DNA of 64,000 nt from contig CP036296.1 of the NCBI GenBank assembly GCA_007751255.1, positions 558,001 through 622,000 of the forward strand. The letters are read 5' to 3'. Made by a program: the position numbers and the translations under genes. The notes below the pieces were generated by a model. The model was given only the letters and a program-made list of their open reading frames with translations, ran no database searches and was not told the DNA's origin. The stretch's first letter is position 1. Every line of letters starts with the position of its first letter. Positions 2,740 to 43,644 of this stretch are shown here, one piece after another. This stretch comes from Engelhardtia mirabilis (GTDB lineage Bacteria > Planctomycetota > UBA1135 > GCA-002686595).

Positions 2740-2756
2740 CCCGCCGCCCCTCGACC

Positions 2757-3479
2757 ATGGACGCTCCGCGCTTCGCCTTCCTGGTGCTCGAGGAGCACCC
2801 CTATGGCCGCGAGATGCTGCGCCGCATCCTCGCGGCCGGCTTCGCGCCGGCGGTGGTCGTGGTCGAGTCGTCGGACGTCGCCGACGAGGAGCGCGAGAAG
2901 TTCCTGGTGCGCTGCGAGGGGCGTGAACTGGCCCCGACCATCGCCGAGCAGGCGGCGCAGGGCGGCATCCCCGTGGAGAGCCTGCCGGCCCACCGCAGCG
3001 CGGCCCTGATGGGCCTGCTCGGTGACGAGCCCCTGGACCTGATGGTCCTGGGCGGCACGCGCATCATCCGCGGCGCGATCCTCGACCACCCGGCCCACGG
3101 CGTGGTCAACAGCCACCCGGGGCTCCTGCCCGATTGCCGCGGCTCGGCTTCGCCGGCCTGGTCGGTGTTCCACGACATCCCGGTCGGTGCGTCGACGCAC
3201 TTCTGCGATCGGGGCATCGACACCGGCGACCTCTTGCTGCGGCGCGAGTTCCCGGTGCGGCGCGGCATGACCTACGAGGACCTGTGCCACGGAACCCTGG
3301 TGCTCGCCGGGGCGCTGATGGCCGAGGCCCTGACCGCCTACCGCGAAGACCGCTGGCCGCAGCTGCGCCGCCCCCAGGGGGAGTCGCCCTGGCCGACCTT
3401 CAAGAACGCGCCCGACGAGGTGCTCGAGGTGGTACGGACCAAGCTCGCCGACCAAACCTATGGCTGCTATGTCGACTGA
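2757..3479 (+). CDS. Formyltransferase-fold protein (formyl_trans_N)
   Basis: This 240-residue protein has the formyltransferase N-terminal fold shared by methionyl-tRNA formyltransferase and GAR transformylase. The catalytic triad is visible as Asn118 and His120 in VVNSHPGLLPDCRG and Asp155 in DRGIDTGDLL. It lacks the C-terminal tRNA-binding domain of Fmt (usually over 300 residues), so it is unlikely to be the housekeeping Fmt. A role in formylating an amino sugar or other small molecule is inference. It lies between an M14 peptidase and a cupin gene on the same strand. Its 3' end carries a repeated motif that recurs 112 nt downstream (see the repeat entry). Confidence 0.75.
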   Translation: MDAPRFAFLVLEEHPYGREMLRRILAAGFAPAVVVVESSDVADEEREKFLVRCEGRELAPTIAEQAAQGGIPVESLPAHRSAALMGLLGDEPLDLMVLGGTRIIRGAILDHPAHGVVNSHPGLLPDCRGSASPAWSVFHDIPVGASTHFCDRGIDTGDLLLRREFPVRRGMTYEDLCHGTLVLAGALMAEALTAYREDRWPQLRRPQGESPWPTFKNAPDEVLEVVRTKLADQTYGCYVD

Positions 3480-3591
3480 TTCGGGATTCCTCGGAGACGT
3501 CGTTCAGTCGGCCGGGGACTTCGACGCCGGATGGGGCGTCGAGTGGCGCGTCGAACTCGCGGCGCAGACCCATGGCTGCCATGCCGATTGA
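3453..3591 (+). repeat. Imperfect direct repeat at a gene junction
   Basis: A 27-nt segment (3453-3479) recurs at 3565-3591 with 22/27 identity, and all differences are transitions. Both copies end in TGA and contain ATGGCTGC-ATG in the +1 frame. Copy 1 encodes the formyltransferase tail QTYGCYVD-stop. In its +1 frame it opens a 43-codon ORF (3460-3591) starting MAAMSTD and ending QTHGCHAD-stop in copy 2. Copy 2 in turn carries the ATG of the cupin gene, which starts MAAMPID. The 43-codon ORF may be a degraded gene remnant or a small gene; nothing else supports it as coding. Confidence 0.6.
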
Positions 3592-4663
3592 CGAGCACTT
3601 CCACGGCGAGGTGGTGCTGCCCGCAGGTGACCTCGACGCCAGCCTGGCCTTCTTCACGGGCGAGCTGGGCTTCGCCCTGGACACGATCTTCCCCGCCGAC
3701 GCGCCGCGCTCGGCGATCCTCGTCGGCCACGGCCTGCGGCTGCGGCTGGAGCGCGACTTCGACGGGGCGGCGGGGACGCTGCGGCTCCGTTGCGCGCCCG
3801 GAGCGGCGCGCCGCACGGTGGCGCCGGGCGGCACCGTCGTGGAGCTGGTGGAAGTCCGCGAACCCGCGCCTCCGCGCCTCGCGCCGCGGGTGCAGATCCA
3901 CCGCGCGGCCGGCGACGACTGGGGCAGGGGCCGAGCCGGCATGGCCTACCGCGACCTCCTGCCCGGGCGCCTGGGCGGCGGCCTGATCGCCTCGCAGATC
4001 CGCATCGCGCAGGGTGGCCCGGTGCCCGACTACGTGCACTTCCACGAGATCGCGTTCCAGATGATCTACTGCCGCCGCGGCTGGGTGCGCGTGGCTTACG
4101 AGGACCAGGGCGAGCCCTTCGTGATGCAGGCCGGCGACGCGGTGTTGCAGCCGCCGCGCATTCGCCACCGGGTGCTCGAGTCCGGCGATGGACTGGAGGT
4201 GATCGAGCTGACCTGTCCGGCGGAGCACCCGACACGCGCCGACCGCTCGCTCGAGCTGCCCACGGACGAACTCGATCCCGAGCGCGACTTCGGAGGCCAG
4301 CGCTTCGCGCGGCACCTGGCGGCCGATTCCACTTTGCAAGCGTGGCGCGGCGGCGCCTTCGCGGCGCGAGACCTGGGCCTGGGCGCCGCCACCGGCGACG
4401 TGGTCCAGGCCGTTGTCGCGCGCAGCACCGGCGCCGCCACCCCGTCCGCTGCCTCCGACCGACACACCTTCCTCTTCGTCCTCGCCGGCTCGGCCGAGTT
4501 GCTACTCGACGGCAGTGGCCACGAGACCCTGTCCGAGGACGACGCCGTGTCCCTGCCCCCTGGCTGCGTCCATCGAGTCGTCGCCACCGCGCCCGACCTC
4601 GAGCTGCTCGAAGTGCGCCTCGCCGTGGACGGCGACGGCACCCTGCGCCCTCCGCGGCCGTGA
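3572..4663 (+). CDS. VOC-like / double cupin-domain protein
   Basis: This is a predicted cytoplasmic protein of 363 residues. The N-terminal part (about 8-70) looks like a glyoxalase/VOC half-domain (VLPAGDLDASLAFFTGELGF). Two cupin barrels follow: one around HFHEIAFQMIYCRRGWVRV through LQPPRIRHRV, and one around HTFLFVLAGSAELLLDG through LPPGCVHRV. The His-rich motifs suggest metal binding. The family fits a dioxygenase or isomerase on a small polar metabolite, but the substrate cannot be read from sequence. ATG 3572 is chosen because homology-like sequence begins right after it; ATG 3581 is an alternative. The start codon lies inside the repeated junction, and the PLP decarboxylase gene follows 26 nt downstream. 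Confidence 0.7.
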   Translation: MAAMPIDEHFHGEVVLPAGDLDASLAFFTGELGFALDTIFPADAPRSAILVGHGLRLRLERDFDGAAGTLRLRCAPGAARRTVAPGGTVVELVEVREPAPPRLAPRVQIHRAAGDDWGRGRAGMAYRDLLPGRLGGGLIASQIRIAQGGPVPDYVHFHEIAFQMIYCRRGWVRVAYEDQGEPFVMQAGDAVLQPPRIRHRVLESGDGLEVIELTCPAEHPTRADRSLELPTDELDPERDFGGQRFARHLAADSTLQAWRGGAFAARDLGLGAATGDVVQAVVARSTGAATPSAASDRHTFLFVLAGSAELLLDGSGHETLSEDDAVSLPPGCVHRVVATAPDLELLEVRLAVDGDGTLRPPRP

Positions 4664-4689
4664 ACTCACGCCCGCCAACCGCGACCGCC

Positions 4690-6129
4690 ATGAGCGACAT
4701 CGACGCCTACGACCCCGAGGCCTTCCGCGCGGCCGGCCACCGCTTGATCGACGGCTTGGCCGACCACCTGGTGCGTGCCGGGGGTCGCGATTGCCCGGCG
4801 ATCTCCAACGTCGCGCCCGAGCGCATGCTGGAGGAGCTGCCGGCGCGCTTCCCCGCGGGCCCCGGTGGGGACGTGGTCATGCGGCTGCTCGAGGTCGTCC
4901 GGCGCTCCACTGCCGTGCACCATCCCGGTTACGTCGGGCACCAGGTCTCAACGCCCCTGCCCCAGGCCGCGTTGGCGGAGCTGACCAGCGCGCTGATCAA
5001 CAACGGCATGGCCATCTACGAGATGGGCCAGATGCAGACGGTGATGGAGCGCCACGTGGTCGCCTGGATGTGCGGCGTGCTCGGCTTCGGCGATGGTTCC
5101 GGCGGGATCCTGACCCACGGCGGTTCCCTGGGCAACCTGACCGCCCTGCTGGCCGCGCGCCAGGCCCGCGCCGGCCACGACATCTGGACCGAGGGCACCC
5201 AGCAACCCCTGGCGCTGCTCGCCTCCGACCAGGCGCACTACTGCATCGACCGCGCGGCGCGGATCATGGGTTGGGGCGCGGGCGGCTCGATCGCGGTGCC
5301 GACCGACGGGCGCTTCCGCATGGGGATCGACGAGCTGGAGCGCAGCCACCGGCGCGCGGTCGACGAGGGCCGGCGCGTGGTGGCCGTGGTCGCGAGCTGC
5401 TGCTCCACGGCCACGGGCAGCTTCGATCCCGTGGACGCGATCGCCGACTTCTGCGCCGAGCACGACCTGTGGCTGCACGTGGACGGTGCCCACGGCGCGT
5501 CCTTCGCCCTCTCGGAGCGCACCCGCGACCGCCTGCGCGGCGTCGAACGCGCGGACTCGGTGGTCTGGGATCTGCACAAGATGATGGCCCTGCCGTCGCT
5601 CAACACGGCGGTGTTGTTCCGCGACGGGCGGCGTTCCTACGAGGCCTTCGCCCAACAGGCCAGTTACCTGTTCGACGACACCGATCCGGGCAGCGAGTGG
5701 TTCAACGTCGGGCGGCGCACCATGGAGTGCACCAAGCGCGCGCTCGGGGTCACGGCCTACTGCATGCTCGAGGCCTACGGGACGGCGCACTTCGCGCGCC
5801 ACGTCGAGCGGCTGATGGAGTTGACCCACCGGCTCGAGGCGCTGGTCGTCGCCGCGGCGGACTTCGAGCTCGCCGTCGAGCCCGAGGCCAACATCCTCTG
5901 CTTCCGGCACGTGCCCCCGGGTTTCGACCAGGATCTGGACGGACTGCAGGCCCGGATCCGTCGGCGAGTGCTGGACAATGGCCGCTACTACCTGGTGCAG
6001 ACGCGCTTGCGCGGCCGGCTCTGGCTGCGGACGAGTCTGATGAACCCGAACACGACCGAGGACGACCTCGAGGGGCTCCTGGACGAAATCCGCGCCACAG
6101 CCGCGAATCGCGGCCACCGCCTAGACTGA
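4690..6129 (+). CDS. PLP-dependent group II decarboxylase (aromatic-amino-acid/glutamate decarboxylase family)
   Basis: This 479-residue protein has the length and motifs of group II pyridoxal-5'-phosphate decarboxylases. His183 (DQAHYCIDRAA) is the ring-stacking residue, Asp265 lies in LHVDGAHGAS, and the Schiff-base lysine is Lys297 in VVWDLHKMMALPS. The family usually has D-x-HK, here DLHK. The phosphate-binding loop THGGSLGNL is present near 142-150. It probably decarboxylates an amino acid or acts on a related amine substrate; the substrate is not predictable. It is the last gene of a four-gene + strand run, next to the cupin protein, which suggests a shared small-molecule pathway (inference). 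Confidence 0.85.
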   Translation: MSDIDAYDPEAFRAAGHRLIDGLADHLVRAGGRDCPAISNVAPERMLEELPARFPAGPGGDVVMRLLEVVRRSTAVHHPGYVGHQVSTPLPQAALAELTSALINNGMAIYEMGQMQTVMERHVVAWMCGVLGFGDGSGGILTHGGSLGNLTALLAARQARAGHDIWTEGTQQPLALLASDQAHYCIDRAARIMGWGAGGSIAVPTDGRFRMGIDELERSHRRAVDEGRRVVAVVASCCSTATGSFDPVDAIADFCAEHDLWLHVDGAHGASFALSERTRDRLRGVERADSVVWDLHKMMALPSLNTAVLFRDGRRSYEAFAQQASYLFDDTDPGSEWFNVGRRTMECTKRALGVTAYCMLEAYGTAHFARHVERLMELTHRLEALVVAAADFELAVEPEANILCFRHVPPGFDQDLDGLQARIRRRVLDNGRYYLVQTRLRGRLWLRTSLMNPNTTEDDLEGLLDEIRATAANRGHRLD

Positions 6130-6156
6130 GCGTCCACCCGTTCCCCGGACCGACCC

Positions 6157-8622
6157 ATGCTCGCGGCCCTGCTGCTCTGCGCCCAACTCAACCAACCGCC
6201 CTGGGCGCCAGCGATCAACGAGCCGCCGGTGATCGGGCCCGCGGTCAATCCGGGCGACGTTCCGATGGAGAGCGTCTTCGCCGACCCCGACGCCGGGGAC
6301 GCGCACCTGGCCAGCGATTGGGAGCTGTGGACCGTGGTGCCGTTCGCCCTGGCGTGGACCTACACGGGCGCTGCCGGTTTCGCCGCTACCAACGCTGCCC
6401 TCGGCGACGGCTCGTTCGTGGGCAGCCATGCCGGCGCCGGCACGCTGTTCGACGACACGACCTACCTGCTGCGCGTGCGCCACCGCGACGACAGCGGCGA
6501 TCCGGCCACCGAGTGGAGCCCTTGGGCTTCGCGCGCCTTCACCACCGGCTCGGCCCAGGACTGGTTCCCGCTGGAGCTGAAGGACGTGCTCGACGCGCCC
6601 GGGCACCAGTGGACCCGGGCCGCGGACGGTGCGGCGGTGGACCTGCCCGGCGGGGCGGTTCCGCCGAGCCTCGCGCTCGAAGCCTCGCTCACCCTCGGGC
6701 TGCTGACGGTCACCGGCAGTGGCGGCCCAGACCTCGTCTCGAATCCCCCGCCCCTCCCAGCGGCCGGACCGGTGCGCGCGCGGCTGAACGGGGGCGCCAA
6801 CGGCTTGGTCTTGCCGGAGACGGACCTCGAGCTGCACGCCCCCGGCTGCGAAAAGCACGTCCTGCTCCTGCCCGCGGTGAACCTGCAACCCTTCGAGCAG
6901 GCGATCTTCTGGTTCTCGGACGACGGCGTGTCCTTCGAGGCCACCGCCTTCCAGACCGCGCCTGTCTTCATCCAGCCCGCGCGCCTGCCGGAGCCGCCCT
7001 GGATCGTCGAGCAGTCGGGCTTCGTGGTCGAGGAGGTCGCGACCGGACTGGCCCTGCCGGTGGACATCGCCTTCGTGCCCGCGCCCGGGCCGGCGCCGGA
7101 TGACGTCCTGTTCTACGTCTCCGAGCTGTACGGCACGATCCGCACCGTGACGCGCGACGGTAGCGTCGGGACCTACGCCGCGAACCTGCTCAACTACGAC
7201 CCGGGTGGACTCTTCCCCGGCAGTGGGGAGCAGGGCGTGACCGGCCTGGCGGTGGATCCGATCACGGGCGACGTGTTCGCGTCGATGCTGTACGACACCG
7301 GCCTGGGCACCCCTTGGAACCCGGTGCACTACCCCAAGGTCGTGCGCTTCACGAGCCTCGACGGCGGTCGCACGGCCGCGAGCCAGCAGGCGATCCTGGA
7401 CTTCGTGGGTGAGGTCCAGGGCCAGTCGCACCAGATCTCGAACCTCACCATCGCCGACGACGGGCGGCTGTTCGTGCACATGGGCGACGGCTTCGCCTCG
7501 GCCACGGCCATGGACCTGTCGTCCTTCCGCGGCAAGCTCCTGCGCGCCGAGCTCGACGGCAGCCCGGCGGCGGACAACCCCTACTTCGACGCCGGCGACG
7601 GCATCGACGCCCGCGACTACGTGTGGGCGTCCGGGGTCCGCAATCCCTTCGGCGGCGACCTGCGCTTCGCCGACGGCAACCTCTATGTGGTCGAGAACGG
7701 TCCCTGGCAGGACCGGCTGGCGCGGATCACGCCGGGCCTCGACCTGGGCTGGGACGGCAACGGCACGTCCATGGCCATCAACGCCCTGTGGAACTGGTTC
7801 CCCGCGCGCGCGCCGGTGGACATGGCCTTCGCCCAGGCGACGACCTTCGGCGGCGGCGGCTTCCCACCTGCAAAGTGGGACCGCGCCTTCGTCAGCCTGT
7901 CGGGGCCGACCTACCTGAAGGGGCCCCAGGACGGCGCGAAGCGGATCGATGAGTTCCTGCTGAACGGTGTCGGCGCGGTGGTGGGGGAGCCGGTGACGCT
8001 GGTGAGCTACGCGGGGATGGGCCACGGCTCGATCGCCGGCCTGGCCTTCGGTCCCGACGGGCTGTACTTCTCGACGCTCTATCCCGAAGCGACGGCCGCG
8101 GGGCCGACGGGGGTCGGAGCGTCGATCCTGCGCGTGCGTTACGAGGGCGTCGTCGACTGCAACGGCAACGGGCAGGCGGACGACTGCGACATCGCGTTGG
8201 GGTCGAGCGCTGACTGCAACGGCGACGGGGTGCCGGACGAGTGCCAGGTGGGGCTCGCGGTCGTGCGGTCGGGAGAGCCCGCAAACCCCGCGGCCCTCGC
8301 GGTCGGGTCGACTGGACCGCCGGTGATCGGAGGGGTTTGGCGCCCGCTGGTGGACAACGCGCTCGTGCTGCAGGGGGCGGTGACGGACGTGTTGGCCTTG
8401 ACGGCGAAGGGGCTCAACGTGCCCACGCCGTTCGGGACGCTCTTGTGTGATTTGAGCGGCGCGACCCTGTCGTTCATCACAGCGCCGGGCGTGCCCTTCG
8501 CCGTGACCGTGCCGAGCGACTGCGCGCTGATCGGCGTGGGCTTGAGCGCGCAGGCAGTCGCGGTGGGGGCGCTGGGGGAGTTGGCCCTGACCAACGCGCT
8601 CGATCTGACGATTGGATCCTGA
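6157..8622 (+). CDS. Secreted PQQ-type glucose/sorbosone dehydrogenase-like protein
   Basis: This is an 821-residue protein with a short N-terminal hydrophobic start. A fibronectin-like region lies at about 20-130. A beta-propeller of the glucose/sorbosone dehydrogenase type follows at about 290-665, with typical phrases such as VTGLAVDPITGDVF, DYVWASGVRNPFGG and GSIAGLAFGPDGLYFS. Next come two DCNGNGQADDCD / DCNGDGVPDEC motifs, the planctomycete calcium-loop-like linker. The last 120 residues carry the secreted C-terminal domain seen in other proteins here (GGVWRPLVDNAL, ending LTNALDLTIGS). It presumably acts or is displayed outside the cytoplasm. Whether it is catalytically active is not clear. 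It ends 2 nt before a large palindromic element. Confidence 0.75.
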   Translation: MLAALLLCAQLNQPPWAPAINEPPVIGPAVNPGDVPMESVFADPDAGDAHLASDWELWTVVPFALAWTYTGAAGFAATNAALGDGSFVGSHAGAGTLFDDTTYLLRVRHRDDSGDPATEWSPWASRAFTTGSAQDWFPLELKDVLDAPGHQWTRAADGAAVDLPGGAVPPSLALEASLTLGLLTVTGSGGPDLVSNPPPLPAAGPVRARLNGGANGLVLPETDLELHAPGCEKHVLLLPAVNLQPFEQAIFWFSDDGVSFEATAFQTAPVFIQPARLPEPPWIVEQSGFVVEEVATGLALPVDIAFVPAPGPAPDDVLFYVSELYGTIRTVTRDGSVGTYAANLLNYDPGGLFPGSGEQGVTGLAVDPITGDVFASMLYDTGLGTPWNPVHYPKVVRFTSLDGGRTAASQQAILDFVGEVQGQSHQISNLTIADDGRLFVHMGDGFASATAMDLSSFRGKLLRAELDGSPAADNPYFDAGDGIDARDYVWASGVRNPFGGDLRFADGNLYVVENGPWQDRLARITPGLDLGWDGNGTSMAINALWNWFPARAPVDMAFAQATTFGGGGFPPAKWDRAFVSLSGPTYLKGPQDGAKRIDEFLLNGVGAVVGEPVTLVSYAGMGHGSIAGLAFGPDGLYFSTLYPEATAAGPTGVGASILRVRYEGVVDCNGNGQADDCDIALGSSADCNGDGVPDECQVGLAVVRSGEPANPAALAVGSTGPPVIGGVWRPLVDNALVLQGAVTDVLALTAKGLNVPTPFGTLLCDLSGATLSFITAPGVPFAVTVPSDCALIGVGLSAQAVAVGALGELALTNALDLTIGS

Positions 8623-8624
8623 CT

Positions 8625-8827
8625 GTGGGCGTACGGTGCCGTGGGCGTACGGTGCCGGTGGGCGTACGGTGCCGGTGGGCGTACGGTGGGCGTACGGTGC
8701 CGGGACCATTTGTCCCAACTGCGTCCCGCGGCGCTGCGATTCGCAGCGCCGCGGGACGCAGTTGGGACAAATGGTCCCGGCACCGTACGCCCACCGGCAC
8801 CGTACGCCCACGGCACCGTACGCCCAC
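8625..8827. repeat. Large palindromic intergenic element, copy 1
   Basis: The core is a perfect 54-bp inverted repeat (8686-8739 and 8741-8794) around a single centre base at 8740. It contains nested GGGACCATTTGTCCC-like hairpins. It is flanked by repeated 16-17 nt units of GTGGGCGTACGGTGCC: five on the left, one of them truncated, and three inverted on the right. It begins just after the TGA of the upstream gene and fills most of the convergent gap. The 109-bp core is identical to the copy at 11520-11628. A REP/BIME-type element or strong bidirectional terminator are the likely explanations. Confidence 0.95.
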
Positions 8828-8846
8828 ACCTACCCACGGAATCTCG

Positions 8847-9626
8847 TCAGAAGACCACAGCGAAGCCATTCGACGCCGCCAGCAGGCTCGGCAGGCTCGC
8901 GTCGACCGTGAACCACTGCAGGCCGACGGTCCCGCTCAGCGAGCTCGGCACCGGGAGCCCCAGCGACGCGTCGCCGACTGCGTCCGTGGTGGTCGCGAGC
9001 AACAGCACCGGCGCGCCCAGGTCCAGCGCGATCAGACCGTCGCCCATCGGCAGGCTCGGTGCGAAGTCCGGCGCACCGATGGCCAGGAACGTCGCGGCGC
9101 TGGGCGGGGCCAGGTGCAGCGTCGGCCTGAAACTCGAGTTGTTCTGCCAGACGTCGGGGCCGAAGGGCTGGCTGACCAGGTACTTCGGCGGCCCCGAGTC
9201 GTAGTCGAAGGAGATCGCCGGCCGCACGGTCGAGGCCGAGGGGGTCGTGCCCAGGCCGAGGGTCACGATCTCGCCGAGGGTCTGCTGCAGCGGGAAGAAG
9301 CTCCCCGCGAAGGTCAGCACGCCGGTGTCGAGCCAGACCGCGCCGCTGCCGGAGGACACACCCGGGTCGAGGGTCAGGGCCGGCACCTTCAACCAGATCT
9401 GCGTGTCGCTCACGCTCTCGGGCACGACCGCCTGGGGGAAGCCGGGTCCGGCGAGGAGCCCGACGCTGACGCTGGCGATGCCCGCCAGGCCCGAGCCCTC
9501 GATCAGGACCAGGTCGCCCGGCGAGCCCGTCTGGGGCACCACGCGATCGACCGTCTGCAAGCCCAGCGCCGACGCGGCGCAGACGAGGTGAGGGAGCGTG
9601 AACAAGGCGAGCTGGAGTCGAAGCAT
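8847..9626 (-). CDS. Secreted protein with IPT/TIG-like region
   Basis: This 259-residue protein has a signal peptide (LALFTLPHLVCAASA). The region after it (VDRVVPQTGSPGDLVLIEGSGLAG) resembles an IPT/TIG immunoglobulin-like fold. The last 110 residues match the secreted C-terminal domain type shared by several proteins in this window (MGDGLIALDLGAPVLLL, then LSGTVGLQWFTVD, ending SNGFAVVF). No catalytic motif is visible; an exported structural or surface protein is likely. It starts at ATG 9626, divergent from the small membrane protein at 9678, and converges on the palindromic element. Confidence 0.6.
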   Translation of the reverse strand: MLRLQLALFTLPHLVCAASALGLQTVDRVVPQTGSPGDLVLIEGSGLAGIASVSVGLLAGPGFPQAVVPESVSDTQIWLKVPALTLDPGVSSGSGAVWLDTGVLTFAGSFFPLQQTLGEIVTLGLGTTPSASTVRPAISFDYDSGPPKYLVSQPFGPDVWQNNSSFRPTLHLAPPSAATFLAIGAPDFAPSLPMGDGLIALDLGAPVLLLATTTDAVGDASLGLPVPSSLSGTVGLQWFTVDASLPSLLAASNGFAVVF

Positions 9627-9677
9627 GGCGAGCTGTGAGGCGGCGGCGGGCAGGACGGCTTGGGTTAGTATGCGCCC

Positions 9678-9830
9678 ATGTCCGCATCCCTGCCGGCCGA
9701 GTTCAAGGCCTACCTCCGCGAGCGCGCGGTGGTCTGGTTGGTCGTGCTCGCGGTGGTCGTCGGCGGTCTCGTCTGGCTGGCCTGGCGCACGGCCCAGGTG
9801 CCCGAGTCGCCCTTCACCTACCAGGTCTGA
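9678..9830 (+). CDS. Small single-pass membrane protein, DUF5989-like
   Basis: This 50-residue ORF starts at ATG 9678. It has an N-terminal amphipathic part (FKAYLRERAV), one transmembrane helix (about 18-37, VVWLVVLAVVVGGLVWLAW) and a short tail ending PFTYQV. Size, layout and the terminal P-F-x-Y motif resemble DUF5989 proteins, which are often encoded next to SxtJ and SGNH-type genes. Here an SGNH-like gene follows 24 nt downstream, which supports a real gene in a two-gene unit. No function is known. The family assignment is from memory of the pattern. Confidence 0.6.
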   Translation: MSASLPAEFKAYLRERAVVWLVVLAVVVGGLVWLAWRTAQVPESPFTYQV

Positions 9831-9854
9831 GCGCCGAGGGATCGGCCGTACGAC

Positions 9855-11474
9855 GTGAGCAACCTCGATCCGCTGGCCCAGACGCCCCTGTGGAGGCGCG
9901 CCCTCTACGCCCTGCTGCCGACCCTGGTCCTGCTCGGCCTGGTCGAGGTGATCGTGCGCGCGGCCCTGCCCGACGCCAGCGGCGTCGACCTCTCCCGCGG
10001 CTTCGGTGACGCGGCGCGCTACCTGGTGCGCGAGCCCGACGGCGGCTACCGCACGGCCATGTTCGTGCGTGACGTCGACGAGAAGGTGATCCCGCCCAAG
10101 AGCGAGACCCTGCGGGTCGTGATGCTCGGCGGCTCGAACACCGAGGGCTTCCCCAGCGGCTGGCTCGGGGAGCGGCTGACCGAGGCCGGCGCGACCCTGG
10201 GCAAGACGGTGGAAGTGATCAACCTGGGGCGCCGCGGCTACGGCTCCGGTCGGGTGCGCGTACTGCTACCCCAGGCCCTCGAGCTGGAACCGGACCTCTT
10301 GGTGGTCTACTCGGGCCACAACGAGTTCGTCGAGGCCAGCTTCCGCATGGACCTGGAGCAGGCCAGCGGCGAGGTCGAGGGCGGCTCCCTGGCCGCGGTC
10401 GATCGCATCGCGCGCAACTTGGCCAGCTACCGCTCCCTGCAAGGCTGGTTCGGCGATCGCGCCGGCCTCGAGCAGGCCGAGCGCCGTCCCCAGGAGCAGA
10501 CCTTCGAGCACGAGAAGTTCCTCGGCCTCGAGTGGGAGCAGACCGTCGCCAAGTTCGAGGAGTACCGCAAGAACCTCGAGACCATGGTCGCCGACGCCCG
10601 GGCCGCCGGCGTGCCGATCCTGCTCTGCACGGTGGCCGGCAACGACTTCGCCGCGCCCTTCGTGTCGACGCCGCCGGCCGGCTTGAGCGAGGCTGAGATC
10701 GCCAAGCTGAACCAGGCCCTGACCGAGGCGCGCAAGGCCCAGCCGCGGTCCCTGTCGTACCTGATCCCGCGCGTGCCCGAGGAGCGCCTGCACTTCGAGG
10801 ACTGGCTCAAGAAGGACGGCCCGACCCTCACGCCGGAGGAAACGCCGGTCTTCACCGCCCACCGCTCGCCCTTCGACCTGGCGCCCTTCTGGTGGTCGCG
10901 ACCGCACACCTGGTCGAAGCGCGTGCGGCCCTTCCTGACCTACCTGCGCGCCCTGCGCGTGCGTGGCTTGTCGGAGGCGGACCAGGCCGCCGCGCGGGCG
11001 TCGATCGAGCCACTCCAGCGCGCCCTCGCCATCGCCCCCGACCACCCCGAGGCCCTCTACCGCCTGGGCCTGGTGGACTACGCCGTCGGCGACCGCGAGC
11101 GCGGGGCCAAGCTCATGCGCCGCGGCTCCGCCACCGACCGCGCCCCGCGCAAGGGCACTCAGTACTCGAACGACATCGTGCGCGAGGTCTCGGCGCGCCT
11201 CGGCGTGCCCCTGGCCGACGTGGAGCAGACCATCCGCGCCCGCTGCCCCGACGGCCTGATCGGCTTCGAGCTGATGCGCGACGAGTGCCACTTCCACCAG
11301 GCACCGCGCTACGTGGTCATGCTCGACGTGGCCGAGGCGGTGGTGCCGGTGCTCTTCCCCGCGCTGGGGGACGAGGCGCGAGCCGAGGCCAAGAAGGCCT
11401 GGGGGCAAGCGCTGCTGGACCTGATCCGCAACGCCACCACCGCCGGCGAACGCGAGCTGGTGCGCGGGGGCTGA
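9855..11474 (+). CDS. Membrane-anchored SGNH/GDSL-type hydrolase with TPR-like segment
   Basis: This 539-residue protein starts at GTG 9855. A transmembrane anchor lies at about 16-36. The SGNH hydrolase blocks are visible: nucleophile Ser94 in MLGGSNTEG, GHNE in VVYSGHNEF, and a late D-x-x-H-like motif (DECHFHQ, near 475). A TPR-like segment (ALAIAPDHPEALYRLGLVDYAVGD) lies just before this last block. The family removes or transfers acyl groups on sugars or lipids; alginate acetylation-type proteins are related. The preceding small membrane protein probably works with it. Its stop abuts palindromic element copy 2. Confidence 0.7.
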   Translation: MSNLDPLAQTPLWRRALYALLPTLVLLGLVEVIVRAALPDASGVDLSRGFGDAARYLVREPDGGYRTAMFVRDVDEKVIPPKSETLRVVMLGGSNTEGFPSGWLGERLTEAGATLGKTVEVINLGRRGYGSGRVRVLLPQALELEPDLLVVYSGHNEFVEASFRMDLEQASGEVEGGSLAAVDRIARNLASYRSLQGWFGDRAGLEQAERRPQEQTFEHEKFLGLEWEQTVAKFEEYRKNLETMVADARAAGVPILLCTVAGNDFAAPFVSTPPAGLSEAEIAKLNQALTEARKAQPRSLSYLIPRVPEERLHFEDWLKKDGPTLTPEETPVFTAHRSPFDLAPFWWSRPHTWSKRVRPFLTYLRALRVRGLSEADQAAARASIEPLQRALAIAPDHPEALYRLGLVDYAVGDRERGAKLMRRGSATDRAPRKGTQYSNDIVREVSARLGVPLADVEQTIRARCPDGLIGFELMRDECHFHQAPRYVVMLDVAEAVVPVLFPALGDEARAEAKKAWGQALLDLIRNATTAGERELVRGG

Positions 11475-11478
11475 AGGT

Positions 11479-11644
11479 GTGGGAGTACGGTGCCGTGGGC
11501 GTACTGGGCGTACGGTGCCGTGGGCGTACGGTGCCGGGACCATTTGTCCCAACTGCGTCCCGCGGCGCTGCGATTCGCAGCGCCGCGGGACGCAGTTGGG
11601 ACAAATGGTCCCGGCACCGTACGCCCACGGCACCGTACGCCCAC
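11479..11644. repeat. Large palindromic intergenic element, copy 2
   Basis: This is a perfect 69-bp inverted repeat (11505-11573 and 11575-11643) around base 11574. It is made of the same core as copy 1 plus one extra GTGGGCGTACGGTGCC-type unit per side. An additional left unit carries one change (GTGGGAGTACGG). The element fills the whole convergent gap and touches the TAG stop of the minus-strand ATP-grasp gene. The 109-bp core is base-for-base identical to copy 1, 2.8 kb away. Confidence 0.95.
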
Positions 11645-12670
11645 CTACCCCATCCAGGGTGCCTCGTACCGCAGCCCCAGGTTCACGATCTTCTGCAGCA
11701 GCTGCGGGTACCCGTACCCCACGCGCTCGAACGACTCGGCGAAGTCCTCGCCGAAGCACAGATCCGGGTTCGGGTTCGCCTCGAGGATCCAGACCCGCTC
11801 GCGCTCGTCCATTCGCATGTCGATGCGCGCATAGCCCGACAGGCCGAGGGCCTTGTAGATGCGTCGCGCCAAGCGGGTGATCTCGTCGGTCTTGGCGGCA
11901 TCCAGCTCCGCCGGCGCGGTGCGCAGGCCGATCTTCTTCTGGTAGGCGGTGTCCCACTTGACCCGCGAGGTGAAGACGTTCGGCGCCCCCGGTCGCAGGT
12001 CGTCCATGAACAGCTCGAAGATCGGCGAGGTCTCGAGGCGCTGGTTGCCGAGCACGCCGATGGTCATCTCGCGGCCCTCGATGTACTCCTCGCACAGGGC
12101 GCCGGTGCCGACGTTGCGGTGGATGAAGTCGACGCGCTCGCGCAGTTGCTCGGCGTCGCGCACGACCGAGGCCTCGGAGATGCCGACCGAGGCGTGCTCG
12201 CTGCGCGACTTGACGAAGAGCGGGAAGTCCAGGTCCTTGGGCAGGCGCGCCAGGGCCTTGCCCCGCGGCACCACCATGAAGTGCGGCGCGCGGATGCGGT
12301 GGTAGGACAGGATCTTCTTGCAGAGCGACTTGTCGTTGGCGAGCAGCAAGCCGCGCGGGTTGCAGCCGGTGTAGGGCTGCTTCTGCAGCTCGAGCCAACT
12401 GACCACGGCCGAGTCGTAGAGGCCGACGCCGTGGAAGTGCGTGAGCAGGTTGAAGGCCACGTGGGGGCGGTGCTCCCGCAGGGCGTGGCGCAGGACGCTC
12501 AGGTCGTCGTCGATGCCGACCATGGTCACCGTGTGGCCCAGGTTCTCGAGGGTCGAGACCACGTCGAACTCCTGCTTGAACTGGTTGGCCACGTCGGGCG
12601 CGAGGCCCTCGAGCGAGTCGGGCGGGACCAGGTCGGCGTGCAGCGCGACGAGAATGCGGAGCTTCTTCAC
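11645..12670 (-). CDS. ATP-grasp ligase, D-alanine-D-alanine ligase-like
   Basis: This 341-residue protein starts at GTG 12670. It has a Rossmann-like start (KKLRILVALHADLVPP) and an ATP-grasp fold. The nucleotide-binding strand is FPLFVKSRSEHASVGIS, the acidic segment is LCEEYIEGREMTIGVLG, and the metal-binding end is WILEANPNPDLCFG. It resembles D-Ala-D-Ala ligase, but the host Ddl is usually near cell-division genes, so a role ligating another amino acid or peptide is likely. It is 12 nt downstream of the zinc-peptidase gene, which implies co-transcription: one makes and one cuts a peptide-like bond (inference). Confidence 0.8.
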   Translation of the reverse strand: MKKLRILVALHADLVPPDSLEGLAPDVANQFKQEFDVVSTLENLGHTVTMVGIDDDLSVLRHALREHRPHVAFNLLTHFHGVGLYDSAVVSWLELQKQPYTGCNPRGLLLANDKSLCKKILSYHRIRAPHFMVVPRGKALARLPKDLDFPLFVKSRSEHASVGISEASVVRDAEQLRERVDFIHRNVGTGALCEEYIEGREMTIGVLGNQRLETSPIFELFMDDLRPGAPNVFTSRVKWDTAYQKKIGLRTAPAELDAAKTDEITRLARRIYKALGLSGYARIDMRMDERERVWILEANPNPDLCFGEDFAESFERVGYGYPQLLQKIVNLGLRYEAPWMG

Positions 12671-12682
12671 GGTTGGTCCGGG

Positions 12683-13711
12683 CTAGCGTTGGTAGCGCGG
12701 GTGCGCGCCGTAGAGGAACTGACTCGACAGGGAGGTCAACACCACCGCCGCGTCGACCAGGGCGTCGGCCTCGGTCGACGGCAGGCGCAGCTCGCGCAGG
12801 TGACTGCGCTCGATCATCTCGCGCAGGGCGTGGTCCAGGAGGTAGCGGTGCTGGCCCGTGGCGGCCGCCACCCGGCGCACCAGGTTGCGCCGGTTGCGGC
12901 GCAGGAAGGTGCTCGCCCGCGGACCCTTGTCGAGAGCCGGGAAGACGCGCTCGAGTTGGCCGGCGAAGGCCGGAGTGCCCTCCTGGGCATAGAACTCGCG
13001 CTTCTGGGCGTAGTACTCGCGCAGGGTCGTACGCACCGAAGCGACGTTGTCCTCGCGCGCGCGGGTACGCAGGGCCGGGGGCTTGTCCGCGATCTCGGCC
13101 ATCAGGACGTCCACGTACTCGAGCTTGGCCAGGGCCGGCCAGTCGGCGTAGCGCGTGCGCCAACGGGAACCCGAGCCCAGCCAAACCGCGAACGTCTCGG
13201 CCCAATCCTCGAGCGGGTGGCTCTGGCTGTACCAGTAGTCGAGGTTCAGCACGTGGGCCCGGCTGGTGGGGTCCGGCGTGTAGCTCGACTCGTAGGCGTC
13301 ACCGGGCCGTCCGAACGTCTCGCGCCAACTGCGCCGGCGCCGCAGGTGGTAGGCGTTGTCGATGGCGTGGGCGGCCTCGTGGCGCAGGATCCGCAGGCAC
13401 TCGTCCTGGCTGCCGCCTTCCACCTGCAACATCTGGCTGCGCTCCAGGCGCACCAGGCGCTCGTGGGCCAGGTAGAAGGGAATCGCGAAGCCGGTGGCGC
13501 CGTCGGGCGTGAACCAGTCAGTGGAGAGCCAGACGTAGGGCTTGAAGCGCAGGCCGCGTCGGGCGAGCTCCTCGTGCAGTCGCTCGACACGGCCTTCGAG
13601 CTCGGAACCCTCGATCGCCAGGCCCAGGTCGCACAATCGCCAGTCGAGCAGCTCTGCGTCGGGCAGCGTCGCCCAGCGCCCGCGGCTGGTCGTGGTCCGT
13701 TTGCGCGCCAT
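12683..13711 (-). CDS. Putative zinc-binding metallopeptidase
   Basis: This is a cytoplasmic 342-residue protein. The zinc peptidase motif HEAAH is at 111-115 (RILRHEAAHAIDN), with a downstream acidic candidate ligand in HPLEDWAETFAVWLGS. No signal peptide or membrane segment is seen. The pattern matches the group annotated as putative zinc-binding metallopeptidases, often found beside ATP-grasp genes as here. The substrate is unknown. ATG 13711 is the start; the kinase gene ends 20 nt upstream of it, so the whole 16.9-11.6 kb minus-strand run may be read together. Confidence 0.7.
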   Translation of the reverse strand: MARKRTTTSRGRWATLPDAELLDWRLCDLGLAIEGSELEGRVERLHEELARRGLRFKPYVWLSTDWFTPDGATGFAIPFYLAHERLVRLERSQMLQVEGGSQDECLRILRHEAAHAIDNAYHLRRRRSWRETFGRPGDAYESSYTPDPTSRAHVLNLDYWYSQSHPLEDWAETFAVWLGSGSRWRTRYADWPALAKLEYVDVLMAEIADKPPALRTRAREDNVASVRTTLREYYAQKREFYAQEGTPAFAGQLERVFPALDKGPRASTFLRRNRRNLVRRVAAATGQHRYLLDHALREMIERSHLRELRLPSTEADALVDAAVVLTSLSSQFLYGAHPRYQR

Positions 13712-13731
13712 GGAGAGAGTCTAGGGCAGAG

Positions 13732-16335
13732 TCACTCGATCACCCGCTCGGCCCACAGGTCTCGGTTCCCGCGGGCGGTCCCTGAGGCGAGGCGCAGACC
13801 GGCGGCGGCGACCGTCTGCGTTGATGACGCGGCCGGTCCGCTGACCTCCAGGCAGTGCTGATAGAGCTCGTCGAGTTCGACGGCCGCGTCGACGGCGGCC
13901 GCGCTGCCCGGATCCGCCAGGCCGCGCGCCTCGAGTGCCCGCGCCCGCGCGTAGACCGTGCGGCGATGATCCGGTCCGAGCTGCGCGCTGCGACCGACGG
14001 CCGCGCGCTCGAAGTTGACGCTGGCCTCGTCGAACTGCCCCAGCTCGATCTGCACCAGCCCCAACGACGCGACTGCGTCGAGAGTCTCGCTGTGATCGGG
14101 CCCCCAAAGGCGCTCGTTCATCTCCAAGCAGGCGATGCTGATGCGCTCCGACTCCTCCAGCTCGCCCAGCTCGTAGACGGCGCCCCCGAGGTTGTAGAGC
14201 AGGGTGGCCACGGTCGGGTGGTCACCGTCGAGCTCGATTTGGAGGATCGCGATGGCCTCCTCGAACAGCTCGCGGGCCTCGGCGTTGCGTCCCTTGCCGA
14301 ACAGGAAGGTGCCGAGGTTGCTGGCGGCGACTCCGGCTTGGACCGAGAGCGGCCCATAGGCCCCGACGATCAGCTCGCGGGCCGAGCGGTAGGCGGCCTC
14401 GGTGGCCTCGTCGTCCCCGAGCACGCGCGTAGCGCGCGCCAGGTGGCTCGCCGCGGTGGCGGCCATGGGTGAGAACTCGGGACCGAACTCGACGAAGCGG
14501 TCCCTCGCGGCCTGGGCGTAGGGGATCGACTCCGTCAACTGCCCGGACTCCTGCAGGGCCCAGGCCAGGTCGCTGTCGATCGCGGCGAGCTCGGGATAGG
14601 TGTCGTCCAGGTAGCCGTGGGCCAAGCCACGCAGTTCGAGCAGGTCCTGGGCCGCCGCGGCGTGGTCCCCGCGCCGCCCGCGCAGGGTGGCGAGCAGGCG
14701 ACTGGCGCGCACCCACTCGAAGGCCCGCTCGGGCAAGAGGTCGGCGAAGATCTGGCGCGCGCCCTCGATGTGCTCCTGGGCCGACTCGTAGCGGCCCTGG
14801 CCGTAGTAGCTGAGCCCGATCAACAGGCGCGTGTCGGCCTCGAGCACCGATTGGCCGGGAAAGGCGCGCATGACCTCGCTCGCCGCGCGGTCGAGCATCT
14901 CGCCCACCGTCGACTCGCTCGAGGTCGTCGTGGTGACGCCCAGGGGGTTCGCGCCGCGCAGCATGGTGTTCAGGAAGCGGTTGAGCATCTCGGCCCGCTC
15001 CAGGCGCTCCTCGGCCTGGGCGCGTGCGGCCTCGGCGTCGGCCCGCGCGGCCACGGCGCTGGCGCGCTCGGTCTCCAGCTCGATCCCCCGGGCCTCGAGC
15101 TCGCGTCCGCGCTCGACGCTCTTGTAGAGACCCCAGCCAGTGCCGGCGGAACCCAGTAGCAGCAGCGTCGCCGCGACCGCGCCGCCCACCACCCAGGCCC
15201 GATTGCGACGCACGAACTTGCGCGCCGCGTAGGTCGCGCTCGGCGGACCCGCGTGCAGGGGTTGGTGATCCAGGTAGCGCCCGAGCTCGTCGGCCAGGTC
15301 CTGGGCCGAGGCGTAGCGGCGGTCGGGCTCCTTCGCCATGGCGCGCGCCGTGACCCAGTCGAGCTCGCGCGACAGGCTCGGCACCAGGCGACTGGGGGGC
15401 TCGGGGTCGCGCTCGCAGACCTCCTTGGCCAGGGCCGTCCACGAGCTGGAGTCACTGATCCAAGGCGAGCGACCGGTGAGCAGGTGGTAGAGCAGGACCC
15501 CCAGGGCGTGGACGTCGGTGCGCACGTCGATGCCCTCGCTCAGACCGAGGACTTGCTCGGGACTCATGTAGCCCAGGGTTCCCAGCAGCTCGCCCCCGGC
15601 CGTGAGCGAGAGGTCCGTCTCCCCGGTCGCGCGCGCGATGCCGAAGTCGATCACCCGCACGCGCCCCTCGAGGTCCACCAGGCAGTTGTCCGGCTTCAGG
15701 TCCCGGTGGATCACGCCGCGCAGGTGACCGTGTTGGACGGCGACGCAGGCCTCGCGCAACAGCAGCAGTCGCCGCCGCAGGGGCAGCTCGCGGGCGAAGG
15801 CCGTCAGGGGTCGCGCGCCCTCGATCAACTCCATCGCGAACCACGGCCGCGGTGGCCCGCCCTCGGGGCCCTCGAGCACGCCGGAGGCCAGGACCTTGGC
15901 GATGCCCGGGTGCGACAGCCGCGCCAGGACCTGGGACTCCTCCTCGAAGCGCCGCCGCGAACGCTCGGTGCCCAGACCCGAGCGCAGGGCCTTCAAGGCC
16001 ACCGAGCGCGCCGGGCTCTCCTGCCGCGCCTCCCAGACCTCACCCATGCCGCCGGCGCCGATCGGGCGCACCAGCTCGAAGCCGCCGATGTGCGCGCCCG
16101 GCTGCAGCACCACGTGGGTCTCGTGGCGGTGGGCCAGGTCGACCAGGGTCTCGGCCGAGGGCGGCTCCAGGAAGCGCTCGTCGGTGGCGTGGGCGGCGAG
16201 CATGCGCTCGGCCTCGCGGGCGAGGTCGGGGTCGTCGCGAAGGGCCGACCGCACCGCATCGACGCGCGCCTCGGCCGGCAGGGCCAGGGCGGCCTCGAAC
16301 GCCTCGCGCACGCGGCGGAAGCCGCTACTGTCCAT
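13732..16335 (-). CDS. Membrane serine/threonine protein kinase with TPR sensor domain
   Basis: This 867-residue protein carries a Hanks-type kinase domain at about 86-355. Seen are the G-loop IGAGGMGEV (92-100), the ATP lysine Lys115 (VALK), HRDLKPDN with Asp212, the DFG at 230-232, and GYMSPEQ. A transmembrane helix lies at about 381-403. A coiled-coil stretch and repeated TPR-type helices fill about 410-840. The start at ATG 16335 overlaps the end of the ECF sigma gene by 11 nt, so the two are translationally coupled. Planctomycetes commonly pair such kinases with ECF sigma factors; phosphorylation of the sigma factor or its partners is a plausible role but not shown. Confidence 0.93.
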   Translation of the reverse strand: MDSSGFRRVREAFEAALALPAEARVDAVRSALRDDPDLAREAERMLAAHATDERFLEPPSAETLVDLAHRHETHVVLQPGAHIGGFELVRPIGAGGMGEVWEARQESPARSVALKALRSGLGTERSRRRFEEESQVLARLSHPGIAKVLASGVLEGPEGGPPRPWFAMELIEGARPLTAFARELPLRRRLLLLREACVAVQHGHLRGVIHRDLKPDNCLVDLEGRVRVIDFGIARATGETDLSLTAGGELLGTLGYMSPEQVLGLSEGIDVRTDVHALGVLLYHLLTGRSPWISDSSSWTALAKEVCERDPEPPSRLVPSLSRELDWVTARAMAKEPDRRYASAQDLADELGRYLDHQPLHAGPPSATYAARKFVRRNRAWVVGGAVAATLLLLGSAGTGWGLYKSVERGRELEARGIELETERASAVAARADAEAARAQAEERLERAEMLNRFLNTMLRGANPLGVTTTTSSESTVGEMLDRAASEVMRAFPGQSVLEADTRLLIGLSYYGQGRYESAQEHIEGARQIFADLLPERAFEWVRASRLLATLRGRRGDHAAAAQDLLELRGLAHGYLDDTYPELAAIDSDLAWALQESGQLTESIPYAQAARDRFVEFGPEFSPMAATAASHLARATRVLGDDEATEAAYRSARELIVGAYGPLSVQAGVAASNLGTFLFGKGRNAEARELFEEAIAILQIELDGDHPTVATLLYNLGGAVYELGELEESERISIACLEMNERLWGPDHSETLDAVASLGLVQIELGQFDEASVNFERAAVGRSAQLGPDHRRTVYARARALEARGLADPGSAAAVDAAVELDELYQHCLEVSGPAASSTQTVAAAGLRLASGTARGNRDLWAERVIE

Positions 16336-16918
16336 CGGCCCCCGGCGCGCCCTTTGGGCCGGCACCGTCGGGGCCCAGGCGCGAGGCCAGCCAGGCCCGG
16401 GCCGACTGCCATCCCCGCTCGACCGTGGCATGTCCCAGTTGCATCACGTCGGCGGTCTCCGCGATGGAGAGGCCGCCGAAGAAGCGTAGCTCGACGATGC
16501 GCGCCAGGCGGGCGTCGAGTTCGGCCAGGCGATCGAGCTCGTCGTTCAGTTCGAGCACGTCGGGCACGCGGTCCGCGTAGACCGCCAGGGCCTCGTCCAG
16601 GAGCACCCGCTGCCGCGAGTCGGGCCGCTTGGCCGCCGACTTGGCGCGGGCGTGGTCCACGAGGACCGAGCGCATGGCCTTGGCCGCAATGGCCAGGAAG
16701 TGGCCGCGATCACCGGGGTCCGAGCCCGCGTGGTCGAGCTTGAGCCAGGCCTCGTGGATCAGGGCCGTGGCCTGCAGGGTGTGCCCGGCCCCGGAGCCGA
16801 GCATGCGCCGCGCCCGGTCGTGCAGGTCGCCGTAGACGACCTCGAAGAGCGCTTCGCCGGCGCTCTCGTCCCCACCCTTCAAGCGCTGCAGTAGGACCGT
16901 GACGTCGCCGTGTCTCAC
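16325..16918 (-). CDS. ECF sigma factor, planctomycete/acidobacterial type
   Basis: This 197-residue RNA polymerase sigma factor has region 2 (ALFEVVYGDLHDRARRML through LIHEAWLKLDHA and HFLAIAAKAMRSVLVDHARA) and region 4 (LARIVELRFFGGLSIAETADVMQL). This is the subfamily that is expanded in Planctomycetota and genetically linked to serine/threonine kinases. GTG 16918 is preferred because a GGAG lies 6 nt upstream; a TTG at 16936 has no such site. No anti-sigma gene is adjacent on this side, and the overlapping kinase is the probable regulator. It lies divergent from the first FG-GAP gene, a candidate target (inference). Confidence 0.9.
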   Translation of the reverse strand: MRHGDVTVLLQRLKGGDESAGEALFEVVYGDLHDRARRMLGSGAGHTLQATALIHEAWLKLDHAGSDPGDRGHFLAIAAKAMRSVLVDHARAKSAAKRPDSRQRVLLDEALAVYADRVPDVLELNDELDRLAELDARLARIVELRFFGGLSIAETADVMQLGHATVERGWQSARAWLASRLGPDGAGPKGAPGADGQ

Positions 16919-16999
16919 GCGTGACTCCGCTCGCAATCGTGGGTGAGGCCCCGGCTTCCGTCAAGCCGGGGCCGCGAGTGGAGCCCATGACCGGGGATT

Positions 17000-17028
17000 G
17001 GTGAGGGAGCGCGGGGCCGCAATCCGTG
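17000..17028 (+). promoter_or_regulatory. Conserved upstream element of FG-GAP gene 1
   Basis: A 29-nt block starting GGTGAGGGAG and ending GGCCGCAATCCGTG-like sequence matches 24/29 bases of the block at 18969-18997. Both blocks end exactly 96 nt before the ATG of their FG-GAP gene. Conservation at fixed distance suggests a promoter or shared 5' leader. It could also be simple residue of the gene duplication. Confidence 0.5.
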
Positions 17029-17123
17029 GGCATCAGCGAGCGACGACCGCGCAGGTCGGTCGCGCGCCCATTCCTGAACACACCCGCGTCGAGCACGGCG
17101 CGGCCGCCCCAACGGCTCCCGCC

Positions 17124-18791: not shown

Positions 18792-18793
18792 AG

Positions 18794-18813
18794 TCGGGGC
18801 CCCGTGGCCCCGA
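18794..18813 (+). terminator. Hairpin terminator after FG-GAP gene 1
   Basis: An 8-bp perfect stem TCGGGGCC / GGCCCCGA with a 4-nt loop (CCGT) begins 2 nt after the stop codon. No T-run follows, as is common in high-GC genomes. Confidence 0.6.
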
Positions 18814-18968
18814 GGGGGAGGCCGAGGGGAAGCGCCGCAAGGCGGGCGGGCCGGCGTCGCGCGAGCGGTGTCGGCCCCTTGTCGTGCCCGGCGCCTGGGT
18901 CGCAATGCCCGGTCGGTGCCGGGCTTGCGCCCAATAGGAGCCAGATTCGGGCCGATTCGCCGTGGGGC

Positions 18969-18997: not shown

Positions 18998-19092
18998 CTC
19001 AACACCGAGCACCGGTCCGCAGGGCCCGGCGCCCACTTCCCCTCGAGCAATCCCGCGCCCGCGAGGCGCGGCCGGAACAGACAGGACCCCCC

Positions 19093-43312: not shown

Positions 43313-43573
43313 GTGAGCGACGGATCTTGGCACGTCTACCTGCTGCGCTGCGCCGACGGCAGCCTGTACGCGGGGATCACCACCGATCCCGAGCGACGCC
43401 TGGCCGAGCACAACGGCGAGCGCCCGGGCGGGGCACGCTATACCCGCGCCCGGCGCCCGGTCGAGCTGGTGCGGAGCGAGACCTGCGGGGACCGCAGCGA
43501 GGCCAGTCGGCTGGAGGCTCGATTGAAGGGCTTGACGCGACCCCAGAAGGAGGCCTGGGCCCAGGGGGACTGA
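43313..43573 (+). CDS. GIY-YIG nuclease-domain protein
   Basis: This 86-residue single-domain GIY-YIG protein shows HVYLLRCADGSLYAGITTDPERRLAEHN, with Arg in the second motif, and ends LEARLKGLTRPQKEAW, as in the YhbQ/UPF0213 group. Family members act on DNA, but most are uncharacterised. GTG 43313 is chosen because the domain begins at once; GTG 43286 would add nine residues. It is the only plus-strand gene inside the molybdoenzyme locus. Confidence 0.85.
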   Translation: MSDGSWHVYLLRCADGSLYAGITTDPERRLAEHNGERPGGARYTRARRPVELVRSETCGDRSEASRLEARLKGLTRPQKEAWAQGD

Positions 43574-43574
43574 G

Positions 43575-43629
43575 CCGCGGGGTAGGCGGCGGTTTTGTGC
43601 CTGGCACCGTACGAACGCCTACCCCGCGG
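43575..43629. terminator. Hairpin in convergent gap, related to the large palindromes
   Basis: A perfect 13-bp inverted repeat (CCGCGGGGTAGGC and complement, 43575-43587 and 43617-43629) encloses a 29-nt loop. The loop holds a smaller palindrome GTGCCTGGCAC followed by CGTACG. The string GGCACCGTACG also occurs in the two large palindromic elements. It starts 2 nt after the GIY-YIG stop and faces the minus-strand NrfD gene. Confidence 0.7.
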
Positions 43630-43644
43630 GATCACGACCTCGCG

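Follow-up and report, generated by a model that had tools for sequence, protein, structure and literature searches.

Two giant palindromes lie between the ends of converging genes in a 64,000-nucleotide stretch of DNA from the planctomycete Engelhardtia mirabilis (GenBank CP036296.1, positions 558,001 to 622,000; 'the window'). They are members of a genome-wide family whose paired arms remain matched while their sequence drifts. According to PMC3116915, REPINs are doublets of repetitive extragenic palindromic (REP) sequences that form hairpins. Their conserved units are inverted around a less conserved spacer, and they are linked to REP-associated tyrosine transposases (RAYTs), which are of the Y1 kind. 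The family described here is probably an orphan version of such a system, in which REP doublets have grown giant, were spread by a past RAYT, and have their arms matched by fold-back copying and short-range exchange. We call it REPIN-like because of its architecture, its placement, the lineage-specific arms and the RAYT of one relative; it is not a complete REPIN–RAYT system because no RAYT was found here. What distinguishes it is the size and perfection of the palindromes. Mobility, termination and the mechanism of copying are what we infer from these features.

The two elements of the window (Table 1) are built from tandem units 16–17 nt long, GTGGGCGTACGGTGCC, whose number varies between copies and between sides, as a first-pass annotation made from the letters alone had described. 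That annotation gave perfect inverted repeats of 54 bp and 69 bp around one base; the second figure stands, the first is 56 bp, and element 1 has an additional, outer perfect pair of 52 bp. A core of 109 bp, identical by reading the letters, is common to both elements as proposed; a computed comparison of the shared core gave 114 nt at 98%. With up to 3 mismatches, GTGGGCGTACGGTGCC has 17 matches in the window, 14 of which fall inside the two elements; shuffled versions of the window average 1.63 (17 reached in 0 of 100 shuffles). Both elements do occupy convergent gaps, beginning 1–4 nt past a stop codon rather than 2–5, and element 2 directly touches the stop codon of the opposing gene. Folded as RNA, they reach −220.1 kcal/mol (element 1; z −22.2) and −172.7 kcal/mol (element 2; z −19.5). 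Rfam gave no gathering-score match over window positions 8000–12500; only microRNA models appeared, under their cut-offs, as they would for any perfect hairpin.

The assembly comprises 6.95 Mb in two contigs and is estimated to be 90.5% complete; the elements are in the 6.9-Mb contig. Within 1.61 Mb examined closely, mostly around matches, there are 80 family clusters and one variant, 81 in all, and so the pair noticed first belongs to a family that extends across the genome. Both ends are intact in 78 of the 81, comprising 48 of type A (the window's kind) and 30 of type B; the other three were left out of the arm analysis. A 79-nt core query gave at least 37 matches of 72–100% identity among the best 40 of 59 candidates scored, many of them both strands of one place. 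The type A arm pattern, allowing up to 3 mismatches, matched 51 times forward and 50 times in reverse (control 0), and type B (GTACGGTGCCAGGCAC...) gave 27 exact pairs (control 0). The generic pair GTACGGTGSC-N68..98-GSCACCGTAC matched 86 times, some elements being counted repeatedly. In the 80 clusters the best exact arms measure 14–83 bp and reach at least 40 bp in 66; outside the family the longest palindrome arm is 32 bp, once the variant just mentioned (63 bp) is counted as family. Palindromes trouble assemblers, and one in a relative reaches the end of its contig. That the family is an artefact of assembly nevertheless has almost no probability: the copies in the 6.9-Mb contig number in the dozens, their cores differ and their flanks are unique, and the same kind recurs in independent assemblies. 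We recognized no account of these elements in the literature within our scope, outside which lay preprints and most subscription papers; among the matches listed for element sequence strings, the titles suggest primer tables.

The arms of an element evolve in concert. Among the type A pattern matches, an arm substitution is mirrored, identical in both arms, in 16 elements, and is confined to a single arm in one (6591487). Within the variable core, identity between an element's own two arms averages 96% (type A) and 94% (type B), with minima of 60% and 74%; core arms of different elements are 60% and 64% identical. The arms thus stay matched during drift. Watson–Crick pairs make up 98.4% of cells across the 29 distinct 97-mers of type A, and dealing the right arms to other elements lowers this to 75% (maximum 81% in 300 deals). 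Changes on both sides occur at 29 of the 47 pairs. The unpaired cells number 22, eight of them wobble-type (TG, GT, CA); leaving out the three innermost pairs, there are 18 among 1276 cells. Mismatches affect about 4% of core positions inside an element, and cores of different elements differ at about 40%; by a rough steady-state argument, mismatches would be erased some 25 times faster than they appear.

Around this free core the arm has a conserved zone, in which likeness between elements is 88% and 95%. Type A is also denser in part of the chromosome, 33 of the 48 lying at 5.0–6.9 and 0–1.0 Mb of the contig; type B is spread. (GC skew, mostly positive to ~3.3 Mb, is mostly negative between 3.5 and 6.5 Mb, which would place the origin near the contig ends.) A conserved zone and uneven density would suit sites that a DNA-binding, uptake or nucleoid protein recognizes and that have multiplied because it requires them. 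We consider this very improbable in view of the 3'-end placement of the elements and of arm sequences that are lineage-specific in each relative; no candidate protein is known, and none was sought.

The identity of cores, on which the first-pass annotation based active copying or gene conversion, is not general: near-identity is limited to type A copies within ~3 kb, cores differ otherwise, and it is between such nearby copies that signs of copying are seen. The five type A pairs less than 3 kb apart, the window pair included, are the five most alike (97–100%). One is a segmental duplication on one side, and four have no common flanks. With the segmental pair removed, the 4 pairs less than 3 kb apart are on average 98.2% alike, compared with 75.8% when every pair is counted, a difference reached in 0 of 5000 permutations; those 10–100 kb apart average 76.9% (33 pairs).

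Type B is also found alone, as a hairpin of ~50 nt in the manner of a REP singlet. It comprises an outer stem that varies, TAGGCG/CGCCTA, a pair of small internal loops and, at its tip, GTGCCAGGCAC. From 52 loose matches, 26 were kept by motif, many of those rejected lying inside genes, and 24 were aligned. The 26 comprise 11 in convergent gaps, 11 in tandem gaps, 1 in a divergent gap, 1 inside a called gene and 2 at edges. Pairing in the 24-row alignment reaches 84.2% of cells, compared with 76.0% for shuffles and 34–48% for slid partners. Cells with changes on both sides number 51, compared with 26.6 for shuffles; neither figure is reached in 500 shuffles. A model of these 24 sequences (R1) finds at least 117 units in this genome, with 130 candidates scored, and one locus, in one genome, among 40 relatives. 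No type A singlet was noticed among the type A arm-pattern matches. By inspection, the doublet arms are such hairpins too, for example TGGGAC...GTCCCA in many type A elements, and arm stems occur in other genomes (GACCCCGG...CCGGGGTC and GGCGTGGT...ACCACGCC); some genomes show no clear arm stem. Since the arms are themselves hairpins, a doublet can fold arm by arm into two hairpins or as a whole into a single giant one. One type B singlet (L080:18683–18745) has complete pairing (GTTCGTC/GACGAAC) where an internal loop is usual, and so looks like an imperfect hairpin made perfect by correction.

Table 1. Palindromic elements of the window and adjoining genes (window positions)
Feature	Position	Strand	Remarks
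Element 1, type A giant palindrome	8624..8828	.	tandem GTGGGCGTACGGTGCC arm units
Element 1, unit starts	left 8625, 8641, 8658, 8675 (partial), 8686; right 8779, 8796, 8812		
Element 1, perfect 56-bp inverted repeat around base 8740	8684..8796	.	inner arms 8684–8739 / 8741–8796; contains 109-bp core 8686–8794
Element 1, outer perfect 52-bp pair	8624–8675 / 8777–8828		
Element 2, type A giant palindrome	11479..11644	.	fewer arm units
Element 2, unit starts	left 11479, 11495 (partial), 11504, 11520; right 11613, 11629		
Element 2, perfect 69-bp inverted repeat around base 11574	11505..11643	.	arms 11505–11573 / 11575–11643; core 11520–11628
Gene ending just 5' of element 1	6157..8622	+	821 aa; stop ends at 8622
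Opposing gene ending just past element 1	8847..9626	-	ends at 8847; start uncertain (9605 or 9626)
Gene ending just 5' of element 2	9855..11474	+	539 aa; stop ends at 11474
Opposing gene, stop adjoining element 2	11645..12670	-	341 aa; ends at 11645
Single type B hairpin, REP-like singlet, convergent gap	43571..43633	-	R1 81.4 bits; among the model's 24 sequences

Two further repeats were observed in passing. At 17118–20562 of the window, two neighbouring paralogous genes carry internal repeats of 168 nt. Elsewhere, a separate repeat of ~155 bp with inverted ends (TCCTGGATCAGNAATTCGGCGTCAC...) and a conserved interior has at least five copies in the 1.61 Mb, at 2926757 (L221), 3135340 (L071), 3413589 (L244), 5846174 (L084) and 5992206 (L087); from its sequence it looks like a small family akin to miniature inverted-repeat transposable elements (MITEs).

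Placement relative to genes was assessed with a home-made gene caller (87% coding). The background consisted of 19 stretches, spread by hand and not picked for elements, one of them chosen for an SbcD candidate; two of the 81 clusters lack a gap orientation and were dropped. Of the remaining 79 elements 37 lie in convergent gaps, as against 29 of 242 background gaps (12%; p 2e-14), 30 in tandem gaps and 12 in divergent ones. The link to gene orientation proposed at first pass is therefore strong but not exclusive, and many copies, convergent-gap enrichment and traces of copying between neighbours bear out its proposal of a family resembling REPs and bacterial interspersed mosaic elements. In tandem gaps the upstream stop is closer than the downstream start in 25 of 30 cases (medians 13 and 74 nt), and overall 65 of 81 elements start within 50 nt of a neighbour's stop codon. 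A tRNA scan of the 12 divergent-case loci found one tRNA-Val, which lies ~370 nt away from its element, and this gap may in fact be tandem. Elements from other records, planctomycete with few exceptions, divide into 19 convergent, 16 tandem, 5 divergent, 2 within genes and 6 at edges, at loci whose gaps number 46 convergent, 142 tandem and 43 divergent; these are totals, one group among them (PLA3) including loci from a second genome. For two relatives whose loci were centred on elements, convergent cases number 11 of 22 (genome G017) and 13 of 20 (genome G006).

This bias towards 3' ends, together with a very stable RNA hairpin, suggests termination, or protection of 3' ends, in both directions. 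Alternatively, the same placement would result if insertions were least harmful at gene ends. Carried further, the first idea makes the elements host-selected bidirectional terminators or 3'-end stabilizers, in which the RNA hairpin is functional and its pairing is kept by compensatory selection. The convergent-gap placement and extremely stable folds agree with this, as does the count of T-tract terminators in 40 kb of the window, which does not exceed that of shuffles (1 vs 4.8 and 5 vs 5.9). We nevertheless think it rather unlikely. No T-tract follows the hairpins at the elements, a scan of window positions 1–20000 listing one site, elsewhere; and terminators need far shorter arms. Selection passing through G–U intermediates predicts a larger wobble share than 8 of 22 unpaired cells. 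It also leaves unexplained the near-identical neighbours with unrelated flanks and the 12 divergent cases. Compensatory selection alone is insufficient because of the near-neighbour effect and the low wobble share, for both of which arm-from-arm copying and exchange between near elements would account.

Related palindromes recur in other planctomycetes. The exact GTACGGTGSC pair is present in 7 of 41 genomes compared (86 matches here, 1–7 in six others) and, across the phylum, in 5 of 294 (86 here, 1–6 in four others; one control match, in one genome). In a named collection, at least 66 stretches matched; long-stem matches were planctomycete records and one unclassified metagenome-assembled genome, and most of the others had no stem. 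The chromosome of a cultured relative, Planctomycetes bacterium Pla163, is among the records with a copy. A sister pair, TACGGAGYC, occurs in 13 of the 41 genomes, with 31 matches in G006, 25 in G017 and 1 here. Most of the 22 elements read in G017 are palindromes close to perfect; their cores differ and the median exact arm is 49 bp. A second genus thus shows the phenomenon. Among the 20 read in G006 (L334–L353), the majority have a partly unpaired spacer and mirrored outer flanks, with exact arms of up to 113 bp. In 4 of these 20 the mirrored flank contains another motif pair, and nesting is clearest in L353, L347, L348 and L350; in L353 two further pairs surround the inner one, giving doublets nested within doublets in three layers.

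A transposase-recognition function, with a Y1 gene to be sought, had also been proposed at first pass. The Y1 domain PF01797 has no match in this genome (assembly estimated 90.5% complete), and is matched in 20 of the 41 genomes. Of eight RAYT frames read, seven carry HFH and six YIDxNP. At one G006 locus (L191), CCATACCGAGCCAGGCTCGCG flanks the RAYT on both sides in inverted order. It matches a dispersed G006 arm at 27 of 30 bases, and the flanks score 24 and 22 against shuffled maxima of 13 and 12. At a G017 locus (L205), GTACGTACGGAGCCG stands on both sides of the RAYT, its downstream copy lying in the palindrome that reaches the contig end. RAYT flanks share a TACSGA-like motif, with small changes in some, in G009, G012, G015, G023 (direct order) and G028; those of G009, G012 and G023 match their own dispersed arms no better than shuffles do. 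When flanks are compared with one another, a shared repeat exceeds shuffles at 11 of 27 loci with usable flanks, and 7 of these 11 repeats contain the TACSGA-like motif. Judged from these flanks, the link to a RAYT appears good in one relative and suggestive in others, and is absent in this genome. Genome G025 has 53 Y1_Tnp matches; the one read (L183) has on its two sides, in inverted orientation, copies of another palindromic repeat, GTCGATCAAATAGGGGTC.

The missing Y1 gene would also fit MITE-like elements moved by a transposase of another family, for which gene ends are safe landing sites. Dispersed copies with common ends and unrelated flanks are what such elements would give, and the four non-duplicated near pairs look like local copying. 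A dispersed arm that brackets a Y1 gene in G006 speaks against it, as do cores that vary between copies, unlike those of a young MITE; we regard this explanation as improbable.

Several observations weigh against an orphan REPIN-like family as well. Besides the empty PF01797 search of this genome, TACGGTGSC occurs at none of 30 RAYT loci of relatives, and TACGGAGYC or TACGGTGSC gives 8 matches, at 5 of the 30, where mononucleotide shuffles give 3.9, by itself a weak excess. Among 16 RAYT loci compared with the arms of their own genomes, L191 alone exceeds shuffles on both sides; at L204, L205 and L207 one flank does so, and in L205 that flank is the element itself. Divergent gaps hold the 12 elements already mentioned, type B elements show no near-neighbour effect, and in the singlets 9 arm-stem pairs are changed on both sides against 7.7 in shuffles (60 of 500 reach this). 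No unpaired GTAG or CGTC tag is present at element ends, and neither excision, insertion nor empty sites were seen in a comparison set that includes no genome of the same genus.

Set beside known systems, the family resembles REPINs (PMC3116915) in having singlets, compensatory pairing in the spacer and two alternative folds. It differs in that its arms are near-perfect up to 83 bp by way of a self-complementary spacer, in that neighbours are homogenized, and in the lack of a GTAG tag and of a RAYT found in the genome. GTAG and CGTC REPs occur in prokaryotes including planctomycetes (PMC3733652). As here, they are intergenic, mostly in convergent or unidirectional gaps near 3' ends, their dimers may fold separately or as a single large stem-loop, and the CGTC REPs have no dedicated transposase. 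However, the stems described in that source are of 5–13 bp and the tag is unpaired, neither of which holds here: the TAGG of type B sits within the paired stem, type A arms start with TGGGAC or alike, and for want of an unpaired tag we do not class the family with these REPs. TnpA-Y1 class 3 elements are found mainly in Planctomycetes and have the foot CnGA (PMC6006769). They too are high-copy secondary structures in planctomycetes, and the TACCGAG and TACGGAG that flank RAYTs of relatives contain CnGA. Unlike class 3, the RAYTs read carry Y---N (YIDxN), the signature of class 2 in that paper, and the arm of this genome reads CGGT. Finally, template switching is reported to maintain perfect hairpins (PMC8794818, PMC6649704), and arm-to-arm copying is the explanation given for perfect stems and paired changes there, as it would be here; those cases are RNA genes and animal mitochondrial genes, and ours is a dispersed bacterial repeat.

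The orphan REPIN-like family probably arose as follows. The doublet consists of two inverted arms of ~30 nt around a spacer, each arm having an outer stem, then GTACGGTGSC with a lineage-specific stretch, and an inner stem. A RAYT-type single-strand transposase, no longer detectably encoded here, would have spread it through the chromosome in the past, and the spacer would itself have become self-complementary, turning the doublet into one giant near-perfect palindrome. Fold-back of the replicating strand may copy one arm onto the other by template switching and so keep the arms matched; exchange between elements a few kilobases apart may account for the likeness of neighbours, and slippage for the extra arm units. 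The elements may persist at 3' ends because they would do little harm there and because their RNA hairpin could terminate or shield transcripts arriving from either direction.

Long perfect palindromes are generally considered unstable in bacterial chromosomes. The SbcD model scores 25.4 bits here (cut-off 77.65), and 3 of the 41 genomes pass the cut-off. A metallophosphoesterase of 442 aa adjoins a protein of 1106 aa with weak AAA/SMC matches (L233:10308–14953; G000:C1 ~830307–834952), and PF13476 has 8 matches in this genome. From sequence resemblance, the metallophosphoesterase and ATPase are possibly a divergent Mre11/Rad50-like pair that may replace SbcCD. Loss of SbcCD as the cause of stability is weakened by this pair and by the fact that most relatives also fall under the SbcD cut-off.

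Dozens of palindromes with drifting cores and matched arms offer a natural measure of arm homogenization. An apparently RAYT-less lineage stands beside RAYT-bearing relatives, and this makes the dependence of REP doublets on their transposase testable. Tentatively, and with odds that we put well short of even, REP doublets can outlive their transposase as self-repairing palindromes: fold-back copying would remove mismatches far more quickly than they appear, lengthen the palindrome into the spacer and, within one replication fork, carry sequence between elements a few kilobases apart. Nested doublets, as in G006, would offer a second route to giant palindromes. If that is true, the family would persist and spread locally without a transposase.

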